Assembly (NCBI RefSeq): GCF_027947575.1
Contig: NZ_CP116256.1
Coordinates: 5,084,001-5,148,000, forward strand
Source: Streptomyces rubrogriseus
GTDB taxonomy: Bacteria; Actinomycetota; Actinomycetes; Streptomycetales; Streptomycetaceae
Reading direction: 5' to 3'
DNA length: 64,000 nucleotides
The position numbers were made by a program, and so were the translations under genes. The notes below the pieces were generated by a model. It saw nothing but the letters and a program-made list of their open reading frames with translations. It was not told where the DNA came from and searched no databases. Shown here one piece after another: positions 1-9,530 of this stretch (the stretch's first letter is position 1; each line of letters starts with the position of its first letter).

Positions 1-703
1 CGTGCTCCACCACCGGAACGTCGGGGAAGCGCTCGCGCCACGGTGCGAGAGCCTCGCCGAGCGCCTTGCGCTCGTACTGCTCCAGGCCTCCGGCCTCGTC
101 CGCGAGGGCCATCGAGCCGGGGCTGTAGGTGAAGACCGTCGGCAGGGCCCAGGCCCGCACGGCGCGCACGGTGGCGCCCCGCGCGGCGGCCGCCTCGAAC
201 GCGAACCCGATGACGTCGGCGCTGTCCTCCGGCTCGCCCTGCTGGCCCACCACGACCTCGCGGCCCCCCGCCTCGGCGGCGGCCTCGTCACCGGCCCGGA
301 CGAGGACGACGGGCCGGGTCGCCTCGGCGATCACCTGCTGGCCGACCGAGCCGAGCAGGAAGCCGACGACCGCGCCGTGGCCGCGCGAGCCGAGGACCAG
401 CGTCTCGGCGTCGGCCGCGGCGGCGAGCAGGGCCGCGACGGCGTCGCCCTCGCGGACGTCGGTGGTCACCGTGAGACCGGGATGGCGCTCGGCGACGGTG
501 CCGACCGCCCGGGCGAGGGCATCCCGCGCCCACCCCTCCTGCGTCTCCCGGTCCACCGCGTCGGCCACGCCCTGCCCCTGGAACCGCCAGGCGTGCACGA
601 CGTGCAGCGGTGCACCGCGGCGCACCGCCTCCCTCGCCGCCCAGGCCAGTGCGGCCAGGCTCTCCTCCGAACCGTCCGAGCCTGCCGTGATCGGGCGCGT
701 CAT
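1..703 (-). CDS. Universal stress protein, tandem UspA domains (3' end off window)
   Basis: The reading frame starts at ATG 703 and runs leftward off the window, so 234 residues are visible and no stop is seen. The N-terminus MTRPITAGSDGSEES is a typical Usp start, and a second Usp unit begins near residue 140 (REVVVGQQGEPEDS). The first domain carries a nucleotide-loop-like LVLGSRGHGAVVGFLLGSV segment. Tandem-Usp proteins of this type are common in actinobacteria, bind ATP, and are often induced by low oxygen or starvation; the role here is inferred from the family. It is divergent from the flavoprotein/kinase operon, with about 210 bp between the two starts. Confidence 0.9.
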   Translation of the reverse strand, partial: MTRPITAGSDGSEESLAALAWAAREAVRRGAPLHVVHAWRFQGQGVADAVDRETQEGWARDALARAVGTVAERHPGLTVTTDVREGDAVAALLAAAADAETLVLGSRGHGAVVGFLLGSVGQQVIAEATRPVVLVRAGDEAAAEAGGREVVVGQQGEPEDSADVIGFAFEAAAARGATVRAVRAWALPTVFTYSPGSMALADEAGGLEQYERKALGEALAPWRERFPDVPVVEH

Positions 704-913
704 GCGGGTCCCTCCCTGGGTCGCGGGAACGTCGTTCTCGGAGCCCAGTCTTCCCCAAGCCGTCCGCACGGCCGCGCGGGGGGAGCTTACGGACGCCGGC
801 GGCCCGTCCCCGCCGCCCGAGCGAGGACCCGCGATCGAACATACGATGGCCGCAGGCCGGTGCGGTGACGGGGACGCCGTGCCGTGAACCCGGCCGCTCG
901 ACGTGGGGGACGT

Positions 914-2590
914 ATGGCACAGGCCGACGCGGAGACACGGACCGTCATCATGACCGTGGACGACGATCCGGGGGTGTCCCGCGCCGTCGCCCGCGACCTG
1001 CGGCGGCGCTACGGCGCCACGTACCGGATCGTGCGCGCGGAGTCCGGCGAGTCGGCCCTCGACGCGCTGCGGGAACTGAAACTCCGCGGCGACCTGGTGG
1101 CCGTGATCCTGGCCGACTACCGGATGCCGCAGATGAACGGCATCGAGTTCCTGGAACAGGCCCTGGACGTCTACCCGGGTGCCCGGCGGGTGCTGCTGAC
1201 GGCGTACGCGGACACCAACGCGGCGATCGACGCGATCAACGTCGTCGATCTGGACCACTACCTGCTCAAGCCCTGGGACCCGCCCGAGGAGAAGCTCTAC
1301 CCGGTCCTGGACGACCTGCTCCAGGCCTGGCGGGCCGGCGACCACCGTCCGGTGCCCAGCACCAAGGTCGTCGGACACCGCTGGTCGGCGCGGTCCTCGG
1401 AGGTCCGGGAGTTCCTGGCCCGCAACCAGGTGCCCTACCGCTGGTACTCCTCGGACGAGCCGGAGGGGCGGCGACTGCTGTCGGCGGCCGGGCAGGACGG
1501 GCAGCGGCTGCCGGTGGTGATCACGCCGGACGGGACCCCGCTGGTGGAGCCGGAGGCGCCCGAGCTGGCGGCGCGGGTGGGCCTGGCGACCACGCCGACG
1601 GCCGACTTCTACGACCTGGTGGTGATCGGCGGCGGCCCGGCGGGGCTCGGCGCGGCCGTGTACGGGGCCTCGGAGGGGCTGCGCACGGTGCTGGTGGAGC
1701 GGTCGGCGACCGGCGGGCAGGCCGGGCAGAGCTCCCGCATCGAGAACTACCTCGGCTTCCCCGACGGAGTGTCCGGCGGCCAGCTCACCGAGCGGGCCCG
1801 GCGGCAGGCGGCGAGGTTCGGCGCCGAGATCCTCACCGCGCGCGAGGTGACCGGCCTGGAGGCGAACGGCGCGGCGCGCGTCGTACGGTTCTCGGACGGC
1901 TCGGCGATCGCCGCGCACAGCGTCATCCTGGCGACCGGCGTGTCCTACCGGCAGCTGGCCGCGCCGGGCACCGAGGACCTGGCCGGCTGCGGGGTGTTCT
2001 ACGGCTCGGCGCTGACCGAGGCGGCCTCCTGCCAGGGCCACGACGTGTACGTCGTCGGCGGCGCCAACTCGGCCGGGCAGGCCGCGATGTACCTGGCCCG
2101 GGGTGCCAAGTCGGTGACCCTGCTGGTGCGCGGCGAGTCCCTGGCGGCGTCGATGTCGTACTACCTGATCCAGCAGATCGAGGAGACGCCCAACATCCAC
2201 GTGCGCTGCTCCACCGTCGTCGAGGGCGCGCACGGCGACGGCCACCTGGAGCGGCTCACCCTGCGCGACGCGGTCGACGGCGCCACCGAACTCGTCGACG
2301 CGCAGTGGCTGTTCGTGTTCATCGGCGCGGCGCCGCTGACCGACTGGCTGGACGGCACGGTGCTGCGGGACGAGCGCGGGTTCATCCTTGCCGGGCCCGA
2401 TCTGACCCCCGACGGGCGGCCGCCGGCCGACTGGGAGCTGGACCGGCCGCCGTACCACCTGGAGACCAGCGTCCCGGGCGTGTTCGTGGCGGGTGACGCC
2501 CGCGCGGAGTCCGCCAAGCGGGTCGCGTCCGCCGTAGGAGAGGGAGCCATGGCCGTGATGCTCGTCCACCGGTACCTGGAGCAGTCGTGA
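914..2590 (+). CDS. Response-regulator receiver fused to thioredoxin-reductase-like FAD oxidoreductase
   Basis: The product is 558 residues from ATG 914; an in-frame GTG at 884 would add ten. Residues 11-135 form a complete receiver domain: acidic DDD at 16-18, phospho-acceptor D68 in ADYRMP, T96 and K119 in LLKPW. Residues about 152-225 look like a glutaredoxin fold without a CxxC. Residues 233-558 are a thioredoxin-reductase-like flavoprotein, with an FAD loop GGGPAG at 239-244 and an NAD(P) loop GGANSAG at 382-388. The CATC dithiol of true thioredoxin reductases is missing: the equivalent stretch is GSALTEAASC. It probably uses NAD(P)H and FAD, but the acceptor is unknown. The stop overlaps the kinase start by four bases, so receiver and kinase are plausibly partners. 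Confidence 0.88.
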   Translation: MAQADAETRTVIMTVDDDPGVSRAVARDLRRRYGATYRIVRAESGESALDALRELKLRGDLVAVILADYRMPQMNGIEFLEQALDVYPGARRVLLTAYADTNAAIDAINVVDLDHYLLKPWDPPEEKLYPVLDDLLQAWRAGDHRPVPSTKVVGHRWSARSSEVREFLARNQVPYRWYSSDEPEGRRLLSAAGQDGQRLPVVITPDGTPLVEPEAPELAARVGLATTPTADFYDLVVIGGGPAGLGAAVYGASEGLRTVLVERSATGGQAGQSSRIENYLGFPDGVSGGQLTERARRQAARFGAEILTAREVTGLEANGAARVVRFSDGSAIAAHSVILATGVSYRQLAAPGTEDLAGCGVFYGSALTEAASCQGHDVYVVGGANSAGQAAMYLARGAKSVTLLVRGESLAASMSYYLIQQIEETPNIHVRCSTVVEGAHGDGHLERLTLRDAVDGATELVDAQWLFVFIGAAPLTDWLDGTVLRDERGFILAGPDLTPDGRPPADWELDRPPYHLETSVPGVFVAGDARAESAKRVASAVGEGAMAVMLVHRYLEQS

Positions 2591-4062
2591 GCGGGCGGCC
2601 GATGCCGTGCAGCCCCGAGGAGATCGGGAAGCTGTTCCTGTTCGAGAAGCTGACGCCCGAGCAGCTGGGCCGGCTGTGCGCCGAGGGCCGGGTGGAGCTG
2701 TTCGACCCGGGCCCGGTGTACGCCGAGGGCGAGGACGCCACCTGCTTCTACGTGATGCTGGCGGGGACGGTCGTGCTGTCCCGCCGGGTCGGCGCGGACG
2801 ACGTGGAGACCAACCGCACCTCGCAGCCCGGGGTGTACGCGGGCGCGATGCAGGCCTACGTCGGCGACCGGGTGCCGCAGGTCTACAACAACTCCATGCG
2901 GGTCACCGAGCCGACCCGGTTCTTCGTGCTCCCGGCCGACACCTTCGCGGCCGTGATGCGGGAGTGGTTCCCGATGGCGGTGCACCTGCTGGAGGGGCTG
3001 TTCTTCGGGTCCAAGAACACCCAGCGCACCATCGGCCAGCGCGAACGGCTGCTGGCGCTGGGGTCGCTGTCCGCCGGTCTCACGCACGAGCTGAACAACC
3101 CGGCGGCGGCCGCGGTACGGGCCACCTCGTCACTGCGGGAGCGGGTGGCGAAGATGCGGCACAAGCTCGCGGTGATCGCCGAGGGCCCGTTCTCCCGCGA
3201 GGCGCTCGCGGGACTCATCGAGATCCAGGAGCGCACGGCGGAGCGGGTGGCCAAGGCCCCCTCGCTCAGCCCGCTGGAGGCCGCCGACCGGGAGGACGAC
3301 CTCGGCGACTGGCTGGAGGACCACGGCATCGAGCACGGCTGGCAGCTCGCGCCGACCTTCGTGCAGGCCGGTCTGGACACCGAGTGGCTCGAACAGGTCG
3401 CGGCGGCCGTGGACGCGGAGATCCTGCCGGGAGCGGTGGGCTGGCTCAACTACACGGTCGAGACCGAGCTGCTGATGAACGAGATCGCGGACTCCACCGC
3501 CCGCATCTCCCATCTGGTGGACGCGGCCAAGCAGTACGCGCAGCTCGACCGGGCGCCCTACCGGACGGTCGACGTCCACGAACTCCTCGACAGCACCCTG
3601 CTGATGCTCTCCGGGAAGATCGGCCCGCGGATCGAGGTCGTCAAGGAGTACGAACGCACGGTGCCGCGGGTCCCGGCCTATCCGGCAGAGCTGAACCAGG
3701 TGTGGACCAACCTGATCGACAACGCCGTCGCCGCGGTGAACGACGCGGGCGGCGAGGGGACGCTGACCGTGCGGACGGCGCTGCACCACGACCGGCTGCT
3801 GGTGGAGTTCCGCGACACCGGCACCGGGATCGACCCGGAGATCCGGGAGCGCATCTTCGACCCGTTCTTCACCACCAAGCCGGTGGGCGAGGGCACCGGG
3901 CTCGGGCTGGACATCTCCTGGCGGATCGTGGTCGACAAGCACCACGGCAGCCTCCAGGTCGAGTCCGTGCCGGGCGACACCCGGTTCCAGGTCCTCCTGC
4001 CGCTCACCGCCCCGGAAACCGACCAGACGGATACAGCCGAACCGAGCGAGGAGCCGGTATGA
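2587..4062 (+). CDS. Cyclic-nucleotide-binding-domain sensor histidine kinase, soluble
   Basis: GTG start at 2587 overlaps the preceding TGA (GTGA); 491 residues. Residues about 15-140 form a cNMP-binding/Crp-type beta-barrel sensor (LFLFEKLTPEQL, then FYVMLAGTV). The phospho-acceptor box is THELNNP with H167, the N box is NLIDNAVAAVN, and the G boxes are DTGTGID and GTGLGL before the end of the domain. No transmembrane segment is visible, so this should be a cytosolic kinase reading a soluble ligand. The obvious partner is the receiver in the upstream flavoprotein; pairing is inferred from translational coupling. Its own stop overlaps the next ATG, making a three-gene coupled operon. Confidence 0.88.
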   Translation: MSGRPMPCSPEEIGKLFLFEKLTPEQLGRLCAEGRVELFDPGPVYAEGEDATCFYVMLAGTVVLSRRVGADDVETNRTSQPGVYAGAMQAYVGDRVPQVYNNSMRVTEPTRFFVLPADTFAAVMREWFPMAVHLLEGLFFGSKNTQRTIGQRERLLALGSLSAGLTHELNNPAAAAVRATSSLRERVAKMRHKLAVIAEGPFSREALAGLIEIQERTAERVAKAPSLSPLEAADREDDLGDWLEDHGIEHGWQLAPTFVQAGLDTEWLEQVAAAVDAEILPGAVGWLNYTVETELLMNEIADSTARISHLVDAAKQYAQLDRAPYRTVDVHELLDSTLLMLSGKIGPRIEVVKEYERTVPRVPAYPAELNQVWTNLIDNAVAAVNDAGGEGTLTVRTALHHDRLLVEFRDTGTGIDPEIRERIFDPFFTTKPVGEGTGLGLDISWRIVVDKHHGSLQVESVPGDTRFQVLLPLTAPETDQTDTAEPSEEPV

Positions 4063-4412
4063 CCAGCGACACCGGAATCGATCCCACCGTCCCGCCGAGC
4101 GGCACCGGGTGCGCCGAGTGCGACGCGGCCGGCGGCTGGTGGTTCCACCTGCGGCGCTGTGCGAGCTGCGGCCACGTCGGCTGCTGCGACAGCTCGCCCG
4201 GACAGCACGCGACCGGCCACTACCGGTCCACCGGGCACCCGCTGGTGCAGAGCTTCGAGCCGGGCGAGGAGTGGTACTGGGACTACGCGACCAGCGAGGT
4301 GCGCGAGTCGGGCCCGGGCCTCGCCCCGCCCGGCAGCCACCCGGCCGACCAGCCCTCCCCGGGCCCGGCGGGCCGGGTCCCGGACGACTGGGCGAGCACG
4401 CTCCACCGCTGA
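4059..4412 (+). CDS. UBP-type zinc finger protein
   Basis: 117 residues from ATG 4059, overlapping the kinase stop as ATGA. It carries the ubiquitin-protease-type zinc finger signature: a CAEC pair, WWFHLRRC, CGHVGCC, then HATGHYRSTGHP and EPGEEWYWDY, giving the expected Cys and His ligands. In eukaryotes this fold binds ubiquitin C-termini. In actinobacteria the ligand is unknown and there is no classical ubiquitin, so I assign no function beyond zinc binding. The C-terminal 35 residues are Pro- and Gly-rich and probably disordered. Its place at the end of the flavoprotein/kinase operon suggests a role in the same signalling or redox pathway. Confidence 0.9.
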   Translation: MTSDTGIDPTVPPSGTGCAECDAAGGWWFHLRRCASCGHVGCCDSSPGQHATGHYRSTGHPLVQSFEPGEEWYWDYATSEVRESGPGLAPPGSHPADQPSPGPAGRVPDDWASTLHR

Positions 4413-7536: not shown

Positions 7537-8841
7537 ATGAGCGACTTGGTCCCCGGGGGCAACGTCCCCCTGCCGGGCGGCCCCGTGAGCGTACGGGTGC
7601 CCGGCGGCTTCGACGTGTCGGCGCTCGTCACGGACGAGGGCGGCAAGGTCGGCGGCGACGCGGACTTCGTCTTCTACAACCAGCCGGAGGCGCCCGGCGC
7701 GAGGCTGCGGGGCGACACGCTCACCGTCGATCCGGCGCGGCTGCGGCGGGGCGCCGCGCGCGTGACGGTGGCGGTCGGCCCGTCGGACCCCGGCACCCCG
7801 CTCGGCGCGCTCCCCTCCCCCACGGTCCGTGTCACCGACGCCCGCGGCCGGGCCGTCGCCCGGTTCACCCCCGCGCGGCCCGGGCGGGAGACCGTGCTGC
7901 TGCTCGTGGAGTTCTACCGGCGCGGCGAGGGCTGGAAGGTGCGCGCCCTGGGGCAGGGGTATGCGGACGGACTCGCCGGTCTCGCCCGGGACTTCGGCGT
8001 GGAGGTGACCGACGACGCGCCGCCGGAGCCGGCCACGGCACCGGAACCGCCCACGCCCGGCACCGACTCCGACGGGTTCCTCGACCTGGTCAACTCCGCC
8101 CGTGCCGCGGCCGGTTCGCCCGCCGTACGGAGCGATCCCCGGCTCCGCTCGGCGGCCCGCGCGCACGCCGCCGCCATGGCCGCCGCGGGCACGCTGAGCG
8201 TCGAGACCCGGGACGGCGTCTCGGTCCACCAGCGCGTCGTCTCGGCCGGGTTCGCGTACCTCACGGTCGGCGAGCACCTGGTGTCGGGCCCGCGCACGCC
8301 CGCCGAGTTCGTCGCGTACTGCCTGCGCGCCGAGCGCACCCGGCGCACCCTGCACGACACCGCCTTCACGCACGCCGGGTGGGCGTCCGTCACCGGCGGG
8401 CCCTCGGGCGACACGTACTGGACGGCGCTGTGGGCCGTGCCGCTCACGCCGGACGGCCTGGCCCGCACGACGGCGGAGGTCGTCGGTCTCACCAACCGGG
8501 AGCGGGCCGGGGCCGGGCTGCCCGCCCTGGCCGTCGACGCCCGGCTGACCGCGGCGGCACAGGCGCACAGCGCGGACATGGTGACCCGCGACTTCTACTC
8601 GCACACCGACCCCGGCGGCGGCAAGCCGTGGGACCGGGCGGCCGCCGCGGGCGCGGACCGGCGCACGGTCGGTGAGAACATCGCCTGCGGCCAGCGCTCC
8701 CCCGCCGAGGTGGTGGAGGGCTGGATGAACAGCCCGGGACACCGCGCCAACATCCTCAAGGCCGGATTCACCCACATCGGCGTCGGTCTGGCCGGCGGCG
8801 GCCGGGCGGGCACGTACTGGACGCAACTCTTCGGTGGCTGA
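7537..8841 (+). CDS. TerD-domain protein fused to two CAP/SCP domains
   Basis: 434 residues. Residues 1-165 match TerD: LVPGGNVPL at the N-terminus, the calcium-ligand-type DADFVFYN, and WKVRALGQGYADGL near the end. After a Pro-rich linker come two CAP (cysteine-rich secretory/PR-1) units. The first, about 180-312, is divergent. The second, about 318-434, keeps the family core (HSADMVTRDFYSHTDP, GENIACG, SPGHRANIL). No signal peptide is seen, which is odd for CAP domains and normal for TerD. TerD proteins are linked to tellurite and envelope stress. The combination suggests a calcium-dependent stress protein, but the biochemical role is open. Confidence 0.85.
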   Translation: MSDLVPGGNVPLPGGPVSVRVPGGFDVSALVTDEGGKVGGDADFVFYNQPEAPGARLRGDTLTVDPARLRRGAARVTVAVGPSDPGTPLGALPSPTVRVTDARGRAVARFTPARPGRETVLLLVEFYRRGEGWKVRALGQGYADGLAGLARDFGVEVTDDAPPEPATAPEPPTPGTDSDGFLDLVNSARAAAGSPAVRSDPRLRSAARAHAAAMAAAGTLSVETRDGVSVHQRVVSAGFAYLTVGEHLVSGPRTPAEFVAYCLRAERTRRTLHDTAFTHAGWASVTGGPSGDTYWTALWAVPLTPDGLARTTAEVVGLTNRERAGAGLPALAVDARLTAAAQAHSADMVTRDFYSHTDPGGGKPWDRAAAAGADRRTVGENIACGQRSPAEVVEGWMNSPGHRANILKAGFTHIGVGLAGGGRAGTYWTQLFGG

Positions 8842-8852
8842 AGGATGACCCC

Positions 8853-9530
8853 ATGAAGGGTGACCTCTTTTCCAGCGAGCACATGGTGCAGCCCGCCACG
8901 GCGCCGGGCATGACCGTCGAGAACTCCAAGTGCATCCGTTACGCCGTGAACGGCGAGATGCACGCCCGGCAGGGCGCGATGATCGCCTACCGCGGCAATC
9001 TCCAGTTCGAGCGCAAGGGCCAGGGTGTGGGCGGCATGCTCAAGCGCGCGGTCACCGGGGAGGGACTGCCGCTGATGGCGGTGCGCGGACAGGGCGAGGC
9101 CTGGTTCGCGAACGAGGCCCAGAACTGCTTCATCGTCGAGGTGGAGCCGGGCGACGAGTTCACCGTCAACGGCCGCAACGTCCTGTGCTTCGACGCGTCG
9201 TTGTCGTACCGCATCGCCACCGTCAAGGGCTCGGGCATCGCCGGTGGCGGACTGTTCAACAGTGTCTTCACCGGACAGGGCAGGCTGGGCCTGGTGTGCG
9301 AGGGCAGTCCGCTGGTCATCCCGGTCTCGCAGCAGTACCCGGTCTACGTCGACACGGACGCGGTCGTCGGCTGGTCGGCCGGGCTCGCGACCTCCCTGCA
9401 CCGTTCGCAGTCGATCGGCTCGATGCTGCGCGGCGGGTCCGGCGAGGCCGTGCAACTGGTGCTCCAGGGCGAGGGCTTCGTCGTGGTACGGCCGAGCGAG
9501 GCGACCTCGCAGAAGCCGCAGCAGCACTGA
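8853..9530 (+). CDS. AIM24 family protein
   Basis: 225 residues starting at ATG 8853, 11 bp after the TerD-CAP stop, so probably co-transcribed. The sequence is a beta-rich AIM24/TraP-type fold: ARQGAMIAYRGNLQFE near 40, then FIVEVEPGDEFTVNG, and VCEGSPLVIPV with VDTDAVVGWS further on. Mitochondrial AIM24 supports inner-membrane architecture. Bacterial members are often found beside Ter-type stress genes, as here, but have no established biochemical activity. The C-terminal 12 residues are polar and probably a tail. Confidence 0.88.
   Translation: MKGDLFSSEHMVQPATAPGMTVENSKCIRYAVNGEMHARQGAMIAYRGNLQFERKGQGVGGMLKRAVTGEGLPLMAVRGQGEAWFANEAQNCFIVEVEPGDEFTVNGRNVLCFDASLSYRIATVKGSGIAGGGLFNSVFTGQGRLGLVCEGSPLVIPVSQQYPVYVDTDAVVGWSAGLATSLHRSQSIGSMLRGGSGEAVQLVLQGEGFVVVRPSEATSQKPQQH

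Follow-up and report, generated by a model that had tools for sequence, protein, structure and literature searches.

Three overlapping genes of Streptomyces rubrogriseus probably form a two-component pathway with an enzyme as its output. The genes lie in the window analysed here, a stretch of 64,000 nucleotides of contig NZ_CP116256.1 (positions 5,084,001-5,148,000), and an open reading frame listing places them on the plus strand at 914-2590, 2587-4062 and 4059-4412. By Pfam, protein search and alignment, the first encodes a flavoprotein of 558 amino acids (aa) in which a receiver, a glutaredoxin-like part and a thioredoxin-reductase-like part follow each other, the second a soluble histidine kinase of 491 aa and the third a UBP-type zinc finger protein of 117 aa with its domain at aa 18-79. 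An earlier note on this DNA had described the genes as overlapping stop-to-start by four bases each; the reading frames are real and both overlaps can be read (GTGA at 2587-2590, ATGA at 4059-4062). It had also recognized the receiver, the flavoprotein, the kinase and the UBP finger, and had overlooked the glutaredoxin-like domain, the loss of CxxC and a long insert in the DHp part of the kinase. Among named proteins, the best relatives come from Streptomyces. Tsukamurella annotation shows this set of three genes too, likewise with 4-base overlaps, and the register of the flavoprotein-kinase junction is the same in 12 of 12 Streptomyces loci examined (tblastn coordinates). Hence, the arrangement is more than chance.

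Linkage of the first two genes was surveyed in 296 genomes of Actinomycetota with a flavoprotein protein search, evaluated on the matches listed, and a kinase-profile search in the same genomes. The 40 best flavoprotein matches, down to an E value of 5.5e-168, were taken as the kinase-linked type, and 38 of them have a kinase within 300 base pairs (bp), one counted kinase being cut by a contig end. Of the two exceptions, G221 has about 405 bases to the contig end on the downstream side and G183 has just a kinase fragment, on another contig of its genome. A kinase scoring 340 bits or more is present in 36 of the 296 genomes, of which 35 carry a flavoprotein of the kinase-linked type; in the one left, G141, the flavoprotein match is broken and shares a contig with the kinase. 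Likewise, 46 of 52 such kinases lie within 6 kilobases (kb) of a flavoprotein of this type. Outside this survey we read the best 80 of 582 candidates from a scan of named genomes, where more exist. These named loci were drawn with alignment A1, made of kinase-linked types, and with a pattern that contains T96, so that the set is enriched for the linked type and T96 in it is not independent evidence. A kinase is present in 67 of the 80, which span Acidobacteriota, Cyanobacteriota, Chloroflexota, Actinomycetota, Pseudomonadota, Deinococcota, Gemmatimonadota, Verrucomicrobiota, Bacteroidota and one Nitrososphaeraceae metagenome-assembled genome (MAG), as assigned from record titles, many of them MAGs. 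Thus, the genes are conserved together, on which the earlier note had staked its reading: kinase and flavoprotein are tightly linked and the trio occurs in several phyla. This holds best for the pair, since just 13 of the 80 named loci have the zinc finger. The joint presence of a kinase and a receiver-bearing enzyme in several phyla suggests a signalling system that acts on an enzyme and not on a gene.

The receiver of the flavoprotein (about aa 11-135, 944..1318, plus strand, as are all operon features below) matches Response_reg with 53.7 bits and has the acidic pair D16/D17, the predicted phosphoacceptor D68 (1115..1117), T96 and K119. The full residue set is present and the receiver was rightly called intact. 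D68 is found in 20 of 20 assessable kinase-linked copies and in 80 of 81 aligned rows. Among the listed matches we picked 48 receiver-type loci (L031-L078) for reading, 46 of which are assessable, one being cut by a contig end and one having a broken frame. All 20 receivers with a linked kinase retain the phosphorylation residues, and none of the 26 receivers without one, some of them on short contigs, has the full set; T96 is retained in two of these 26. Receivers of the linked group (20 rows) share a mean pairwise identity of 0.657 and those of a clade of unlinked proteins (25 rows) one of 0.360, whereas the values for the enzyme domain are 0.569 and 0.563. Since the unlinked flavoproteins persist with an equally conserved flavin domain, the enzyme has a use without the kinase. 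Where six named loci with long flanks have no local kinase, five of the six genomes hold a full-length family kinase elsewhere (536-638 bits). No kinase of the family was found (best 124 bits) in 14 genomes of Actinomycetota that were selected because they carry the unlinked type alone, and a degenerate receiver was actually read in 13 of these, the exception being G032. In sequence comparison, this joint pattern of kinase and intact receiver supports the prediction that the two would work as a pair.

The kinase (2587..4062) has a HATPase_c catalytic domain at aa 367-474 (3685..4008; 83.6 bits) and keeps the H, N and G boxes, with the motifs AGLTHELNNPAA, LNQVWTNLIDNA, DTGTGI and GTGLGLD. H167 in the H-box (3085..3087) is the predicted phospho-histidine. 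Pfam HisKA does not match this protein and a standard compact DHp domain is not seen. Instead, a region of about 120 aa (3115..3474) separates the H-box from the second DHp helix, within a range of 110-140 residues in 36 rows of alignment A3. In CckA the same spacing is about 20 residues, although the H-box part of the CckA alignment is weak (3.9 bits). This alignment suggests that HisKA misses the protein because of the long stretch, in which single residues are conserved in A3 (E236 in 35/36 rows, W242 and L268 in 34/36 each).

The N-terminal part of the kinase is a cyclic nucleotide-binding (CNB)-type domain (about aa 13-137, 2623..2997) with a degenerate ligand pocket, and its cNMP_binding match of 26.4 bits falls slightly below the cut-off of 27.5. 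CNB domains that bind cAMP or cGMP have a Glu and an Arg in the phosphate-binding cassette; in the window the cassette reads GVYAGAMQAYVGDRVPQVYNNSMRV, without this pair. A few relatives, for example the kinases of L166 and L205, look canonical at this site. Because the pocket is without the usual cyclic-nucleotide residues, a cyclic-nucleotide signal is not supported and such a ligand was not accepted. Of the soluble kinase with a cyclic-nucleotide-type sensor that had been proposed, the kinase and the CNB-type fold therefore stand and the ligand residues do not. Two linked kinases (L048, L177) have, by eye, an N-terminal receiver-like segment in place of the CNB domain. In some loci (L040-L042, L150) one flavoprotein is followed by two or three CNB-type kinases in tandem, which suggests several inputs feeding one output.

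Behind the receiver, the flavoprotein has a decayed glutaredoxin-like domain (about aa 150-225, 1361..1588) and a thioredoxin-reductase-fold FAD/NAD(P)H domain (about aa 231-556, 1604..2581). Pfam gives no match for the former. It was recognized by hhalign (probability 99%, E 5e-18) against the glutaredoxin part of L087 and L088, two stand-alone Grx-TrxR proteins, the first of which passes Pfam Glutaredoxin with 46.6 bits. These proteins have CPDC and CATC where the window protein reads SARS and GSAL. SARS is neither CxxC nor CxxS, Pro200 is kept, and across the 80 named loci and the window (81 rows) residue 158 is always S, A or N. In the flavin domain, Pyr_redox_2 matches with 108.4 bits and the FAD and NAD(P)H motifs GGGPAG, GGQAG, GGANSA and GD are in place. 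GSAL (aa 364-367, 2003..2014) marks the site of the missing CxxC, which is absent from 57 of 59 aligned rows, the exceptions being L087 and L088; at position 364, 79 of the 81 rows have Gly and two have Tyr, and no CxxC occurs among them. The loop in its place is conserved as small residues in these 81 rows, a lone Cys373 is conserved in 64 of them, and E369 is invariant in the 36 rows of alignment A2. The closest solved relatives are thioredoxin reductases with 153 bits, compared to 71 bits for the best ferredoxin-NADP reductase. Of the thioredoxin-reductase-like flavoprotein put forward in the earlier note, fold and cofactor motifs are confirmed and the dithiol is not there. Since both dithiol motifs are missing, the gene product is not a thioredoxin reductase, and this function was rejected.

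The proposed pathway has the following steps. The kinase would sense an intracellular signal through its CNB-type domain, autophosphorylate at H167 and hand the phosphate on to D68 in the flavoprotein's own receiver. Phosphorylation of D68 may then change the activity or the assembly of the FAD- and NAD(P)H-binding enzyme. Phosphotransfer and the direction of its effect we infer from what the comparison shows, namely linkage, conserved catalytic residues, the joint loss of the linked kinase and the receiver site, and the loss of the dithiols. As both dithiol centres are lost, the electrons of the enzyme would go to an acceptor that is not a disulfide of the thioredoxin type. The zinc finger protein would most likely bind and assist the flavoprotein, as a partner or targeting factor, rather than the kinase; its role, like the acceptor, we infer. 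Thus, the earlier proposal of a phosphorelay that controls a flavoenzyme and not DNA binding is supported, by comparison, through linkage, receiver constraint and co-occurrence.

Several points weigh against a two-component pathway with an enzyme output. The boundary of the set of 40 flavoproteins was fixed after their kinase neighbours were already known. Among the named loci 13 of 80 have no kinase, and in only 60 does it lie on the same strand within 500 bp. D68 is retained in 9 of the 26 unlinked receivers. Apart from L074, the unlinked receivers fall into a single clade on the tree (25 members, support 100/99), so that independent losses are few. In G301 the receiver is intact, yet the genome holds no family kinase (best 140 bits). 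On the side of the third gene, 70 of the 92 zinc fingers found in the 296 genomes are not near a flavoprotein, some being on short contigs. Finally, the flavoprotein may serve as a redox sensor and not as an enzyme.

This last possibility is the main rival, and we regard it as unlikely, yet serious. The flavoprotein would then be a pseudoenzyme whose FAD/NAD(P)H occupancy modulates gain or loss of the receiver phosphate, with information flowing to the kinase or another partner. The loss of both dithiol centres with retained cofactor motifs is in line with this, and an inspection by eye, rather than a family search, revealed no electron acceptor among the recurrent neighbours. However, the flavin domain of the unlinked clade is as conserved as that of the linked group, so it acts without phosphorylation, and the conserved loop that replaces CxxC, with its small residues and Glu369, looks like a remodelled active site. 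There is a smaller chance that the receiver is a purely structural or dimerization part and that the kinase serves another regulator. Unlinked flavoproteins do retain a degenerate receiver, but constraint on the receiver is lower where the linked kinase is missing, and 35 of the 36 genomes with a kinase of at least 340 bits carry the linked-type flavoprotein, with only a broken match in G141. That the protein is a regulated reductase of thioredoxin or of mycothiol disulfide, which is what the database name 'thioredoxin-disulfide reductase' implies, is very improbable despite the nearest solved relatives and the two CxxC motifs of L087 and L088, because the window protein has CxxC in neither domain, the flavin-domain motif is missing in 57 of 59 rows and in all 80 named loci, and TIGR01292 scores 217 bits versus a cut-off of 343.

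The flavoprotein resembles several known proteins without being identical to any of them. In AhpF a thioredoxin-fold part precedes the thioredoxin-reductase part, and the dithiols carry the electrons. This domain order is shared by AhpF, the Grx-TrxR fusions and gene 1; L087 and L088 keep the dithiol motifs, whereas gene 1 has lost both. TrxR-like ferredoxin/flavodoxin NADP reductases without CXXC have been described (PMC10294844), and judging from the accessible part of that paper the fold without CXXC is the sole trait they have in common with the window protein. The latter is fused to a receiver and scores nearer to true thioredoxin reductases (153 versus 71 bits), so that its loss of CxxC looks independent. 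Proteins annotated as 'cyclic nucleotide-binding domain-containing thioredoxin-disulfide reductase' have the same glutaredoxin-like and flavin domains with a CNB domain in place of the receiver. The swap was seen by eye in 9 of 60 loci that we chose as a sample (L031-L090; the nine are L079-L086 and L089), and Pfam confirmed it in both proteins tested (L079 71.4 bits, L084 52.1 bits). Hence, the comparison indicates that the input domain can be exchanged between receiver and CNB domain. The CNB-type loci that were read are also without CxxC, and some adjoin a UBP zinc finger; in G050, G092 and G247 such a reductase stands beside a zinc finger and the genome has no family kinase.

The third gene (4059..4412) matches zf-UBP with 50.7 bits and has the zinc-binding Cys/His set. 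In 11 rows the Cys and His and most of the pattern W-HLR, GCCD-S, HA--H, HP, EPGE-W are conserved, in agreement with the ubiquitin-protease-type finger named before. The nearest solved protein is PDB 2ida (89.7 bits), a bacterial UBP finger with the same domain, deposited as a hypothetical protein. In USP5, R221 is the Arg that holds the ubiquitin C-terminus. By alignment, this position is Lys in USP13 and His in gene 3. Among the 296 genomes zf-UBP occurs in 68, the flavoprotein family in at least 63 (among the matches listed) and both in at least 49. A flavoprotein is found at a distance of at most 10 kb for 22 of the 92 zinc finger matches, versus about 0.6 expected, with genome size set to 4 Mb outside Streptomyces. 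For five of these 22 (G106, G247, G050, G268, G092) the genome contains no kinase of the family, and this persisting linkage points to the flavoprotein as the partner. The adaptor role assigned to the finger in the earlier note stays a putative one. On plasmid records with both genes, among the matches listed, 23 of 25 zinc finger-flavoprotein pairs are within 2.5 kb, although ten of the 23 are near-copies with an identical 479-base spacing. Where a named locus holds the zinc finger, it lies within 3.5 kb in 11 of the 13. The order flavoprotein-kinase-zinc finger is found in Solibacteraceae (L133), Acidoferrales (L146) and Pelatocladus (L169), and in Mucilaginibacter (L208) the finger directly follows the flavoprotein. 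No in-frame fusion of the two was found in three loci checked from coordinates (G106, G177, G268). A wider conserved cluster did not emerge from the 60 sampled loci, where, next to flavoprotein and kinase, SDR-like and ABC-transporter-like genes (by eye) recur in seven loci each, the zinc finger in six and others in at most five. Since these families are similarly frequent, the recurrent-neighbour test by itself does not set the zinc finger apart; the plasmid records with their close pairs and the 10-kb proximity count do. Some UBP fingers are also tied to cation:proton antiporters, by overlap, by a position at the antiporter's end or by fusion, as in Deinococcus (L128:5001-5270, annotation) and in an actinobacterium (L103, by eye). 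With this and the 70 unlinked fingers, the zinc finger is not exclusive to the flavoprotein.

Upstream of the operon, aligned regions show a conserved promoter-like element (819..849, plus strand) with GAGCGA at 819-824, a 17-nucleotide spacer and TACGAT at 842-847, overlapped by ATCGAACATACGATGG at 834-849. From its sequence it may be read as a promoter; a standard sigma-70 consensus scan found none. The consensus of 20 upstream elements is GAGCG, 9 nucleotides, GATCGAACATACGATGG. A close flavoprotein (at least 87% identity) is encoded in 26 of 61 Streptomyces genomes and a more distant one in three, and in 21 of the 26 the element lies, with at most one mismatch, 75-118 bp before the flavoprotein start (in G324 from coordinates only). 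It also precedes one broken flavoprotein copy (G310). For nine of 31 matches in the genus, tblastn showed no flavoprotein gene, intact or broken, behind the element; of five of these viewed, two are before TetR-like genes (by eye), two beside other genes and the fifth, in G349, before the cut-off start of a flavoprotein frame. A regulon was not found in the own genome, which has one exact copy of ATCGAACATACGATGG and one site with two mismatches (reversed-pattern control 0). G349 and G310 hold natural broken copies: in the former (L233) the element and the first codons are about 13 kb from the rest of the flavoprotein, in the latter (L221) flavoprotein matches lie in several frames.

A universal stress protein gene (PF00582, 173.6 bits; window 1-703, minus strand) runs divergently from the operon and shares its intergenic region; it starts at 703 and is the same gene as L210:5832-6704 (minus strand). 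Downstream of the operon follows a separate AAA/LuxR-type gene that is not among the recurrent neighbours of the 60 loci. Further on, a single reading frame (7537-8841) combines a TerD domain with two CAP/SCP matches, and the next gene (8853-9530) is AIM24-like. On a Tsukamurella plasmid (L127:9556-11264) the trio is followed by an S-(hydroxymethyl)mycothiol dehydrogenase and an MBL-fold hydrolase, which may point to stress by formaldehyde or nitrosothiols. In two cyanobacterial plasmids (among L123, L124 and L121) the flavoprotein-kinase pair stands behind glgX and an AGE-family epimerase, and a low temperature requirement protein A gene is near the pair in L121 and L123.

The earlier note knew of no described pathway of this form. 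Literature on the operon, the fusion and the bacterial zinc finger contained no description of the three-gene module, most subscription journals being outside the search; the fusion of receiver and thioredoxin reductase, however, is in print (PMC5847659). According to the accessible part of that paper, such combinations occur in two Heimdallarchaeota, were termed 'Mycobacterium-like' and likewise join a receiver to a thioredoxin-reductase-type enzyme as a response regulator with enzymatic output; this part has no mention of a partner kinase, zinc finger, glutaredoxin relic, loss of CxxC or exchange of receiver and CNB domain. In the accessible text of PMC8945050 'response regulator' occurs in the reference list only, and that of PMC12632262, on pseudo-receivers, does not mention thioredoxin, FAD or oxidoreductase. 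For bacterial UBP zinc fingers, narrow literature searches turned up nothing.

It is conceivable, though we hold this only tentatively, that the operon represents a widespread kind of pathway in which a kinase with an insert in its DHp part directly switches a disulfide-free flavoenzyme, can be rewired by exchange of the receiver for a CNB domain and has the UBP finger as dedicated partner or substrate. The kinase would then be a DHp variant that escapes Pfam HisKA, and for a large family the database name 'thioredoxin-disulfide reductase' would be misleading. The module would also give bacterial UBP zinc fingers a physiological setting. If the proposed two-component pathway is true, bacteria of about ten phyla would control redox chemistry directly by phosphorelay, without a transcription step.

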